Source: a bacterium
GTDB taxonomy: Bacteria > Sysuimicrobiota > Sysuimicrobiia > Sysuimicrobiales > Segetimicrobiaceae
Direction: 5' to 3'
Length of the DNA: 32,450 nt
Assembly: GCA_035307765.1 (NCBI GenBank)
Contig: DATGHU010000004.1
Coordinates: 1 to 32,450, forward strand
This document shows, in pieces, positions 11,099 to 14,550 of the stretch (within the stretch, counting starts at the first letter, position 1; every line of letters begins with the position of its first letter). The notes beneath the pieces were generated by a model. It saw nothing but the letters and a program-made list of their open reading frames with translations, was not told where the DNA came from and did no database searches. The position numbers and the translations under genes were made by a program.

Positions 11099-12280
11099 TT
11101 AGACCTTTAGTTCCAGAACAGCATTGAGGCGGGCGAACCCCGCCTCGAGATCGGCGATGAGGTCCTCGAGGGCCTCGAGGCCAACGTGGAGGCGGAGGAG
11201 GATCCCCGGCTCCCGCCAGGGGCGCGCCGTGCGGCTCTCCTTCGGGCTGGCGGGGATGATCAGACTTTCGTAACCGCCGAAGCTTGCGCCGATCCTGAAG
11301 AGGCGGAGGCCGTCAAGCAGCGCCGCCACGGCAGGCCTGGAGTCTGTGCGCAGGAGCACGCCGAAGAGACTCGACGCGCCTAGAAAATCCCGCTCCCACA
11401 GCGCGTGCCCGGGATCGTCGGGGAGCGCCGGGTGCAGCACCCGGGCGACCTCAGGTCGCGCGGCCAGCCATTTCGCCAGTGTCAGCGCGGCGCGCTCGTG
11501 GTGACGCAGGCGGACGGCGAGGGTGCGAAGCCCGCGCAGGGTCTCGTAGCAGAGGTCGGGCGACACGCAGTCGCCGAATTCGCCCAGACCGTCCTTGACC
11601 CGCCGGAACACTTCCTCGCTGCGCGCGGTGATCACGCCGAGGAGCAGGTCCGAGTGCCCCGCCAGGTATTTCGTCGCGGCTTGGACCTCGAGGTCGACGC
11701 CGTGGTCGAACGCCCGGAAGTTGAGCGGAGTGGCCCACGTGTTATCGAACAGCACCAGCGCGCCTCGGGCGTGCGCCGCGCGGGCGATCGCGGGAACATC
11801 CTGCACCTCGAACGTCTGGGACCCCGGGGACTCCGCGTAGACGACCCGGGTGTGTGGGCGGATGAGGGACGCGATCCCAGCCCCAACGTGAGGATCGTAG
11901 AAGGTGGTCTCCACACCGAAGCGGGCCAGCACCGCGGTAGCGAAATGCCGGGTGGGACCGTACACGGTATCGGCCACCAAGAGATGGTCGCCCTGCCGCA
12001 GGCAGGCCGTCAGCGCCTGGGTGATCGCCGAGAGCCCGGATGACGTGACGAGCGATCGGTGGCCGCCGGAGAGCTCCGCCAGCGCCTCGGTCAGGGCGAA
12101 GGTCGTGGGCGTGCCGTGAATCCCGTAATAGAACCCGGTGTATTTCCGGTCCGTTCGGTGCTCAAACGCCTCCATCGTCGGGAAGAGGATCGTCGACGCT
12201 CGATAGACCGGGGGATTCACAACGCCGAAGTGGCCGTCGGGGTCCCGGCCGGCGTGCACCAGCCGTGTCTCAGGCTTCAT
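11099..12280 (-). CDS. metC: Cystathionine beta-lyase (MetC type)
   Basis: A 393-residue PLP enzyme of the Cys/Met metabolism family. It would cleave cystathionine to homocysteine, pyruvate and ammonia in methionine synthesis. Similarity to the proteobacterial MetC type is strong along the whole length, for example TRLVHAGR (5-12), DNTWATPLNF (179-188), the PLP lysine in AATKYLAGHSD (Lys204) and GGYESLI near the C-terminus. The start is set at the ATG (12280) with GGGAGG upstream at rather short spacing; an upstream ATG pair adds five residues. It follows the OsmC gene by 69 bases. The same reaction type can act on cysteine or other beta-substituted amino acids, so the in vivo substrate is not certain. 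Confidence 0.88.
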   Translation of the reverse strand: MKPETRLVHAGRDPDGHFGVVNPPVYRASTILFPTMEAFEHRTDRKYTGFYYGIHGTPTTFALTEALAELSGGHRSLVTSSGLSAITQALTACLRQGDHLLVADTVYGPTRHFATAVLARFGVETTFYDPHVGAGIASLIRPHTRVVYAESPGSQTFEVQDVPAIARAAHARGALVLFDNTWATPLNFRAFDHGVDLEVQAATKYLAGHSDLLLGVITARSEEVFRRVKDGLGEFGDCVSPDLCYETLRGLRTLAVRLRHHERAALTLAKWLAARPEVARVLHPALPDDPGHALWERDFLGASSLFGVLLRTDSRPAVAALLDGLRLFRIGASFGGYESLIIPASPKESRTARPWREPGILLRLHVGLEALEDLIADLEAGFARLNAVLELKV

Positions 12281-12349: not shown

Positions 12350-12784
12350 TCACCCGGCGCGCGGGGTCCCGGGGTGCCCGACGACGTCGATCTTGACCTC
12401 GGTCGCGACCGCGACCGTCCGGTAGAGTGGTCAGCGACTCCGCCACACCTCGACGAGCCGGTCGGCCTCGGCCCCCTCGACCCCGTGGATCTCAAAGCGC
12501 ATGTCGATGCGCGCAAAGCGCGCCGGATCGGCGGCGGCCCGAATGCCCGAGATCGTCACCTCCATCCGGTGCACCGGCACCCCGCTGTCCCGGGCGTACT
12601 TCTCGATCAGGGTGACGCCGCACGACGAGATGCCGGCGAGGAACGCCTCGCTGTTCGTCATGTGCTCGCTGGGCCCCGACGATGAGTCCAACATCAGATG
12701 GTGCGTTCGGGCGGCGCTGAGCGCGCGCCCGGGGAACCCGGTGGAATAGGTCCTGACCGTGTCGGTGGTAAACGCGTCGGCCAC
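12350..12784 (-). CDS. OsmC/Ohr-family peroxide-scavenging protein, candidate selenoprotein (in-frame TGA as Sec)
   Basis: Up to the first TGA (12433-12431) the gene codes for 117 residues of an OsmC fold, including the first redox cysteine Cys55 (ISSCG). Normal family members then have a second cysteine in a CP[LV]YRT motif about 63-66 residues later. Here the codon at that exact place (118) is TGA, and the same frame continues PLYRTVAVATEVKIDVV to a TGA at 12352-12350, giving 144 residues, the usual family length. A hairpin with loop GGUC starts 20 bases after the TGA, as in bacterial SECIS elements, and the TGA is followed by C. OsmC-like selenoproteins have been reported from metagenomes (from memory). 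Start is GTG with GGAGGGGG six bases upstream. Alternative: a single C-to-A change creating a truncated 117-residue protein. A conventional gene finder would end this gene at 12431. The family reduces organic hydroperoxides with paired thiols. Confidence 0.72.
12396..12423 (-). promoter_or_regulatory. SECIS-like hairpin after the in-frame TGA
   Basis: Read on the minus strand, the 7-bp stem CGGTCGC/GCGACCG closes a tetraloop GGTC (12410-12407). A 3x1 internal loop and a lower 3-bp stem ACC/GGT (12423-12421 with 12398-12396) extend it. The loop begins 20 bases after the TGA, and its first two bases are G. Bacterial SECIS elements are known for a short apical stem-loop 16-37 bases downstream with a G in the first two loop positions. 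Hairpins are common in GC-rich DNA, so this is supporting rather than independent proof. Confidence 0.6.
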
Positions 12785-12909: not shown

Positions 12910-12939
12910 CTCCGCACCGGACACGCTATCGGTGCGGAG
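12910..12939 (-). terminator. Perfect 10-bp inverted repeat at the end of purR
   Basis: CTCCGCACCG (12910-12919) pairs perfectly with CGGTGCGGAG (12930-12939) around a 10-base loop. The purR stop codon lies in the loop edge. There is no U-tract on either side, so it may be a weak or factor-dependent terminator, or an RNA-stabilising hairpin between purR and the OsmC gene. Confidence 0.4.
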
Positions 12940-13762
12940 GATGCCCGAGGGCCCACTGGCTCGGGCCCAATCGGATCGCCCCGCGGGCCTCGTCGATCCC
13001 CTCGAATACGAGCAGCGACACATACTCGTCGACGAGCTTCTCGCTGGGGTGGGCGGTCTCGATGAGGACCCCGATCCCGACGATCTCCGCCTGAAATTCT
13101 CGCATCAGGTCGAAGACGCCCCGCGCGGTGCCGCCTCCGCGCAGGAAGTCGTCGATGAAGAGCGCGCGCGCGCCGGGGGGAACGGCGCGCAGGGGAAGCG
13201 TCATCGACTGCACCGCCCGCGACGACCCCGAGACGTAGTTCACCCCTACGGTCGGTCCCTCCGTGCCCATGCCGCCCCGCCGGGCCGTGACCAGGGGCAC
13301 GTTGAATGCGCGGGCGGTCATGAGCGCGAGCGGGATCCCTTGGACCTCCATCGACAGCACCACGTCGGGGCGCCGGTCGGCAAAGAAGGTCGCAAAGACC
13401 CCACCCAGCGCGGACACCAAGCTGGGCAGCGAGAGCAGATCGGCGGTGTAGAGGAATCCCCCCGGGAGGATCCGCGACGGTTCGCGCAGGCGACGCGCCA
13501 GGTCCTCGGCGATCGCCCGGATCTGCCCGGGAGTACGGTGGGGGGTGAAGCGGACCCCGCCCGTCGCCCCCGCCAGTGTCTCGATCCTCCCGAGCTGGAA
13601 CTGCTCGCAGGTCTCCCGCAGGGATGAGATATCCTCGCTGATCGTGGACTTGGCCGCTCCCAACGCTTCGGTAAACGTCCCCAGCGGGAAGACGGTGTGC
13701 GGTTCCTGAAACAGCCGGTGGGCGATCGCCACCATGCGGTCGCCCCGCCGAAGCCGCCTCAC
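12926..13762 (-). CDS. purR: PurR, purine operon repressor (Gram-positive type)
   Basis: A 278-residue protein with an N-terminal winged helix (residues about 10-75; LGAAKSTISEDISSL at 34-48) and a C-terminal phosphoribosyltransferase-like domain. The PRPP-binding loop is visible as ALFIDDFLRGGGT (200-212), and GGFLYTADLL (101-110) matches PurR of Bacillus. In that family PRPP releases the repressor from purine-gene operators. B. subtilis PurR is 285 residues. The GTG start overlaps the stop of the preceding nucleotidyltransferase gene as GTGA, implying translational coupling. The ispE-purR association is typical of Firmicutes. It is unrelated to the LacI-type PurR of E. coli. Confidence 0.92.
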   Translation of the reverse strand: MRRLRRGDRMVAIAHRLFQEPHTVFPLGTFTEALGAAKSTISEDISSLRETCEQFQLGRIETLAGATGGVRFTPHRTPGQIRAIAEDLARRLREPSRILPGGFLYTADLLSLPSLVSALGGVFATFFADRRPDVVLSMEVQGIPLALMTARAFNVPLVTARRGGMGTEGPTVGVNYVSGSSRAVQSMTLPLRAVPPGARALFIDDFLRGGGTARGVFDLMREFQAEIVGIGVLIETAHPSEKLVDEYVSLLVFEGIDEARGAIRLGPSQWALGHPPHR

Positions 13763-14550
13763 CACCCCGCGATCCTCTGCGCGTGGCCCGAGGTCGACGT
13801 CCCCCGGTCCCGCCCCAATCGCTCGCGGACCAGCGCGAGCATTTCCGCGGTGTCGACATCCACGGCGATCTCGGGGGTCGGGCAGACGAGCGCGCGCACG
13901 CGCACGCCGGTCAGGGTGGTCCCCCGTCGCTCGAGAGCAGCGATGCGCAGGGTACCGGCGGCGAGGCCGGCGAGCGTCCCCAGTCCGAACAGCCCGGCCA
14001 GCTCCCACGGCCGCTTCCGAGCGCGGATCGCCCGCTCGACCGCTCCCCGCGCCCGGGCGAACGCCGTGGGGGACATGAGGATGAGGCTCCCGCCGGTGAA
14101 CGTGCCGTCGCGCAGGCGGACGAACGTCTTCCGGACCGTGGGGAACGCTCGCGCCACTTCCTCGCGCCGGACGATGCCGTAGACGATCTCCGCGTCGAGC
14201 GCCGCCGCCTCAGCCGCGAAGGCATCCACGGCCGCCGGGGTGAGCAGGGGAATGTCGGCGCCGACCGCCAGCACCGGCTCGTTATCCGGGAGCGCGGCGA
14301 GGCCGGCGGCCAGGTTCTCGATCAGCGCCCCGCGTTCTGGAACGGGTACGTCGACCGCGGCCGCCACGGACGGCGGAAGGGGCATTGGCCCGACCAGCGC
14401 GATCCGGCGGACAGCGGCGGCCCCGCGGAGCGCGTCGAGCACGAACTCCACCATCGAGCGGCCGAGCAGCGGGGCGAACGCTTTGTTCGGAACGCCCCCG
14501 GCCACGCCGGGATCGGGCCGTCCTCCCGCCAGCACGACCGCATTGGGCAT
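13759..14550 (-). CDS. MobA-like NTP transferase domain protein
   Basis: A 263-residue protein with a Rossmann-like nucleotidyltransferase fold. The N-terminal nucleotide loop is VVLAGGRPDPG (4-14), followed by NKAFAPLLGRSMVEFVLDAL, which is the pattern of MobA/GlmU/IspD-type enzymes, and a metal-binding acidic segment VGADIPLLTP. It lacks the canonical G-x-G-x-R-M of GlmU. The gene lies 10 bases after ispE and overlaps purR by four bases, so it is the middle gene of an operon. The transferred nucleotide and acceptor are not identifiable. Orthologues between ispE and purR are common in Firmicutes-like genomes (memory), where they are left as hypothetical NTP transferases. Start is the ATG at 14550; a longer frame to 14577 overlaps ispE. 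Confidence 0.85.
   Translation of the reverse strand: MPNAVVLAGGRPDPGVAGGVPNKAFAPLLGRSMVEFVLDALRGAAAVRRIALVGPMPLPPSVAAAVDVPVPERGALIENLAAGLAALPDNEPVLAVGADIPLLTPAAVDAFAAEAAALDAEIVYGIVRREEVARAFPTVRKTFVRLRDGTFTGGSLILMSPTAFARARGAVERAIRARKRPWELAGLFGLGTLAGLAAGTLRIAALERRGTTLTGVRVRALVCPTPEIAVDVDTAEMLALVRERLGRDRGTSTSGHAQRIAGW

Follow-up and report, generated by a model that had tools for sequence, protein, structure and literature searches.

The thiol peroxidases Ohr and OsmC rely on two essential cysteines and are reduced by lipoyl systems (PMC8945050). These organic hydroperoxide peroxidases (PF02566, TIGR03561) share their fold and the same two redox positions with the protein described here, but carry cysteine at both of them. 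Cysteine likewise occupies both positions in the YhfA-type OsmC proteins (E. coli YhfA; PDB 1ml8), whose biochemical role is unknown (PMC8945050); the likeness to our protein lies in a comparable spacing near the first cysteine and in a remote sequence match. A cysteine/selenocysteine pair in which selenocysteine (Sec) comes second is found in the CxxU selenoproteins (AhpD-like, SelW-like), but their folds are unrelated and the two residues are near-adjacent, whereas those of the protein under study are 63 residues apart.

An OsmC-like selenoprotein with the motif UxxT is known from the Sargasso Sea and GOS surveys (PMC1088965, PMC2398784, PMC13188914), and a 2026 catalogue that recognises 119 subfamilies of prokaryotic selenoproteins and splits them by Sec position lists OsmC only once, as UxxT (PMC13188914). 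The curated model NF041052 ('OsmC-related (seleno)protein') describes proteins that resemble ours in possessing the OsmC fold, two redox positions and one Sec, and both kinds are present in the phylum of the organism studied here. Eight TGA-bearing NF041052 members from this phylum score above the cut-off of the model; in those that were read (L026-L033), Sec occupies the first position, either as FUILT/FULLT, which is the UxxT of the literature, or as FUEEV/FUEGV, and cysteine the second (CYTE, CYVL) wherever the match is complete. The family to which our gene belongs shows the reverse arrangement, with cysteine first and Sec second (UPLYRT), and forms a clade separate from NF041052 in the phylogenetic tree. 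Since the catalogued OsmC selenoproteins have Sec first, the gene belongs to a different subfamily, one with Sec at the second position. The initial annotation, made without database searches, had mentioned that OsmC-like selenoproteins were listed in metagenome surveys, but it missed that the catalogued UxxT/NF041052 proteins have Sec first. The placement of Sec at the first position in the published UxxT members rests, in our analysis, on the NF041052 members of this phylum. The catalogues and papers that we could read list no OsmC protein with Sec at the second position, the most relevant papers giving the UxxT form only, and none of the curated models scanned covers such a family.

In three genomes of the collection (G001, G002, G026), the first-position kind and the second-position kind occur together. 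Three further OsmC-like frames with one TGA each (L042, 1501-1878; G020:C1:203543-203938; G042:C154:7980-8342) score 53-58 bits with the NF041052 model and fall short of its cut-off; the TGA of L042 is at the first position, and these frames may represent another Sec subfamily.

The gene lies within a window (the whole stretch of DNA that was analysed) of 32,450 nucleotides. Its reading frame and the two redox codons are placed as follows:

12350 to 12784, minus strand: Sec-containing OsmC-family gene; GTG start at 12784, 144 residues, final stop TGA at 12352-12350
12620 to 12622, minus strand: codon of Cys55 (TGC), the first redox cysteine, counted from the GTG start and placed by alignment
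12431 to 12433, minus strand: in-frame TGA, codon 118, the second redox position and the U of RUPLYRT, placed by comparison with homologues

Beyond the TGA at codon 118, the frame stays open up to the second TGA at 12352-12350. When the first TGA is read through, the score against the Pfam OsmC model (PF02566) rises from 32.3 bits for the truncated product to 48.3 bits, above the gathering score of 27.5 bits, and the match (residues 39-132) extends into the part beyond the TGA. Codon 118 aligns with the second cysteine of the solved OsmC proteins 1lql (RCPAHNT) and 4mh4 (TCPYSKA). Both Cys55 and U118 are invariant in the 13 homologues from the same phylum, in all of which Cys55 is encoded by TGC, and their spacing of 63 residues meets the criterion for OsmC/Ohr peroxidases (about 63-66). 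The claims of the initial annotation that an OsmC-family gene carries a TGA (12433-12431) at its second redox-cysteine position, and that the frame continues to 144 residues with Cys55 and position 118 as the pair, were both confirmed.

An AlphaFold model of the protein (pLDDT 83.7) finds its closest counterparts in the PDB among OsmC/Ohr proteins. Arg26 and Glu46 are invariant in the alignment, and this glutamate precedes Cys55 by nine residues; in Ohr proteins, an acidic residue lies ten residues before the first cysteine. The equivalence of these two residues with the catalytic Arg/Glu pair of Ohr has not been shown. The score against the Ohr model (TIGR03561) is 21.6 bits, far under its cut-off of 88.85. 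We also weighed an assignment to NF041052 and rejected it, as the gene scores 21.8 bits against a curated cut-off of 95 and does not have Sec at the first position. With both the Ohr and the known Sec-OsmC models so far under their cut-offs, membership in a peroxidase clade is not shown.

The main alternative raised by the initial annotation was a nonsense mutation or a sequencing error in which TGC is read as TGA, two codons that are a single base apart. A strong homologue is present in 13 of 43 genomes of the same phylum, and each of the 13 has TGA at the equivalent of codon 118. An alignment-based scan through roughly 85,000 species genomes yielded 45 loci, of which 43 carry TGA, L099 carries TGC and L108 is a generic OsmC; an earlier scan of the same contigs with a single-sequence query had found no match. 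Four of these loci duplicate ones from the own phylum, leaving 53 distinct homologous loci, 52 with TGA and one, L099, with the cysteine codon TGC. When 95 genomes from the Rokubacteria phylum were searched at the protein level, an approach independent of any DNA pattern although some genomes are shared with the large scan, 40 had strong homologues, every one of them with TGA. The TGA form occurs in at least eight phyla, as assigned by record titles, which can be wrong for metagenome-assembled genomes: Rokubacteria/Methylomirabilota, Chloroflexota/Thermomicrobiota, Actinomycetota, Gemmatimonadota, 'Deltaproteobacterium', Acidobacteriota, Poribacteria and the own phylum of the gene. In the tree, the second-position Sec proteins form a single clade (support 100/97) within which the cysteine form L099 is nested, while the first-position families fall elsewhere.

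That TGA recurs at this codon in 52 distinct loci, drawn from independent assemblies of at least eight phyla, rules out a read error; together with the strong selection on the downstream codons and the frozen hairpin described below, it leaves next to no room for a nonsense mutation, a pseudogene or a misread base as a general explanation. One point in favour of this alternative is a Rokubacteria contig (L090, 6352-6399) whose downstream frame is broken by a TAA three codons past the TGA, which points either to decay of this copy or to an error in assembly. The initial annotation had held that relatives with TGA and a decayed downstream frame would refute its reading; none were found apart from this draft contig.

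L099 (6334-6381) is the only cysteine form found; at 41% identity, its frame runs uninterrupted across the codon. Its genome retains SelB, which means that Sec gave way to Cys in this lineage without prior loss of the machinery. The existence of a cysteine homologue, a criterion for bacterial selenoproteins, is met by L099 and by the solved OsmC proteins, which have cysteine at this position as well.

The codons that follow the UGA are under a selection regime that changes over short distances. Codons +1 to +4 (PLYR) combine a pS of 0.44-0.64 with a dN/dS of only 0.03-0.04. Over codons +5 to +10, which contain the putative Sec insertion element (SECIS), pS drops to 0.00 within the organism's own family and to 0.11 in Rokubacteria, compared with 0.39-0.64 in the flanks on either side, and at codons +11 to +16 ordinary coding values return (dN/dS 0.31-0.53). 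The identity of codons is 0.90 in the SECIS stretch versus 0.55 in the remaining gene (p = 0.0007). Values of dN/dS upstream of the UGA were set aside because small indels were ignored in calculating them. This pattern indicates that the message is translated beyond the UGA and that a local RNA constraint operates inside the translated region; the selenoprotein criterion of an in-frame UGA followed by protein-coding selection is thereby met.

These data bear on a second alternative, in which the UGA is a true stop, the 117-residue product is functional and the downstream codons merely represent a conserved regulatory hairpin. In its favour, the truncated frame alone passes the Pfam cut-off (32.3 against 27.5 bits). 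Against it stand the low dN/dS directly behind the UGA, the coverage of the read-through part by the Pfam match, the uninterrupted frame of L099 and the gene arrangement in two relatives, and we regard it as very improbable. The genes that border osmC in the window are:

11099 to 12280, minus strand: cystathionine beta-lyase, the downstream neighbour (TIGR01324, 476 bits; cut-off 365.9)
12926 to 14008, minus strand: PurR-type purine repressor gene, just upstream of the osmC gene (TIGR01743, 298 bits)

In the relatives L019 and L020, the start of the cystathionine beta-lyase gene overlaps the read-through stop of osmC (ATGA), which argues that ribosomes reach this stop. A conserved operon partner was sought, but the cystathionine beta-lyase neighbour is limited to the organism's own family, and a gene resembling DNA-3-methyladenine glycosylase (identified by eye) lies downstream in Rokubacteria; since the downstream neighbours differ between these groups, no functional partner is claimed.

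The element that would direct Sec insertion is located just behind the recoded codon:

12400 to 12417, minus strand: SECIS hairpin; 7-bp stem formed by 12417-12411 with 12406-12400, GGUC apical loop at 12410-12407

Its stem begins 13 nucleotides, and its loop 20 nucleotides, past the UGA; the initial annotation had let the hairpin itself begin at 20, which is true of the loop only, and had correctly placed it inside the bacterial SECIS window. The published bacterial SECIS model (PMC13188914) demands a loop of 3-9 nucleotides with a G among the first two of them, a distance of 16-37 nucleotides from UGA to loop, a stem of 4-16 bp and a folding energy of -7.5 kcal/mol or lower. Across 51 sequences of the family these criteria are met, with a four-nucleotide NGNN loop, a spacing of 20 nucleotides, 5-7 contiguous pairs and an energy of -7.5 kcal/mol or below in each of the 51. 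The second loop position is G in all of them, although the amino acid specified by the loop codon varies among Val, Ala, Gly and Asp.

Taken by itself, the hairpin of the window is not beyond chance, as 22% of synonymous-codon shuffles pair equally well, and a single-sequence fold of the 62 nucleotides around the TGA is uninformative (z = -0.37). The argument for the hairpin rests, for this reason, on the comparison across genomes. In the alignment, 95.5% of the cells are paired, a level reached by none of 500 shuffles, and stem pairs average 6.69 over the 51 sequences, whereas 300 shuffles average 3.76 and reach 4.49 at most. Four stem pairs show double-sided changes: C-G to U-A in L094, L095 and L107, U-A to C-G in L104, and both G-C to C-G and C-G to G-U in L100. 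In the cysteine homologue L099, the hairpin has decayed in its stem as well as in its loop (CAAUCGC CACG GCGACGC).

The genome from which the window derives (3.82 Mb, 51 contigs) contains the complete set of genes for Sec synthesis and insertion (selA, selB, selC and selD), by which a further selenoprotein criterion is met. The tRNA-Sec has a TCA anticodon and was found at 72.1 bits (tRNA-SeC by ARAGORN), and it shares a contig with selA (458.7 bits) and with selB, whose product possesses winged-helix domains. The selD gene lies on another contig (392.7 bits; G000:C34:292205-293125, locus L109) and has one in-frame TGA; SelD is a selenoprotein family in its own right, and in all probability this selD is itself a selenoprotein gene. 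The genome search proposed in the initial annotation thus found every component, and the absence of selB or tRNA-Sec, which would have refuted its reading, did not occur. SelB is present in all 13 holders of the gene in the own phylum, compared with 20 of 30 other genomes (Fisher p = 0.016), and in 10 of 10 holder genomes tested from other phyla. Co-occurrence is uninformative in the Rokubacteria phylum because 84 of its 95 genomes have SelB; the search gave no match in five of the 40 holders there, plausibly because these are draft genomes.

Read-through by itself does not identify the inserted residue, and a third alternative would have the UGA read as another amino acid, for instance Trp, or by plain suppression. 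The full Sec machinery and a hairpin of the bacterial SECIS type at the right distance speak against it, as does the fact that cysteine is the only alternative seen in this column of the family and is the residue of the solved OsmC proteins; we consider it highly unlikely. The recoded UGA, the coding selection past it, the conserved SECIS element and the machinery are shown by the sequence evidence. That Sec is inserted at codon 118 of an OsmC-fold redox protein, as the initial annotation had proposed, is supported by them and is nearly certain, but it remains an inference from sequence alone, without proof at the protein level.

In the mechanism that we envisage, SelB and Sec-tRNA would bind the hairpin just past UGA 118 and insert Sec, and translation would go on for 26 residues after Sec118, completing the fold. 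Cys55 would then be oxidised to a sulfenic acid by an organic hydroperoxide or a similar oxidant, Sec118 would attack this sulfenic acid to form a Cys-Sec selenenylsulfide, and a cellular dithiol would reduce the latter. Peroxidase-type chemistry on organic hydroperoxides or a similar oxidant is a likely function; the activity and the reductant are both inferred.

The division of labour between Cys55 as the peroxidatic and Sec118 as the resolving residue is drawn by analogy and homology with Ohr/OsmC, and the evidence does little to tip the balance either way. The roles might be swapped, so that Cys55 resolves and Sec118 is the residue that attacks the peroxide or some other substrate. In redox selenoproteins it is usually Sec that makes the attack, and its near-obligatory presence at position 118, with one cysteine form found, favours this alternative. 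Against it, the first cysteine is the peroxidatic one in Ohr/OsmC, as is established for the family with its two essential cysteines (PMC8945050), Cys55 is invariant, and the known Sec-OsmC family has its Sec at just that first position. We rank swapped roles slightly behind a resolving Sec118, by a margin too narrow to dismiss them.

Gene callers halt at UGA, so that public annotations of members of this family are likely truncated, and with this finding the selenoproteins of soil and groundwater phyla gain a further subfamily. A bolder reading, which may prove right or wrong with much the same chance, is that of a widespread, uncatalogued family with a peroxidatic Cys and a resolving Sec 63 residues apart, the reverse of the known Sec-OsmC proteins, Sec having been gained independently at each active-site position of one fold. 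As this fold occurs with Sec first, with Sec second, or with Cys at both positions, sometimes within a single genome, it would allow the benefit of selenium at the attacking place to be compared directly with that at the resolving place.
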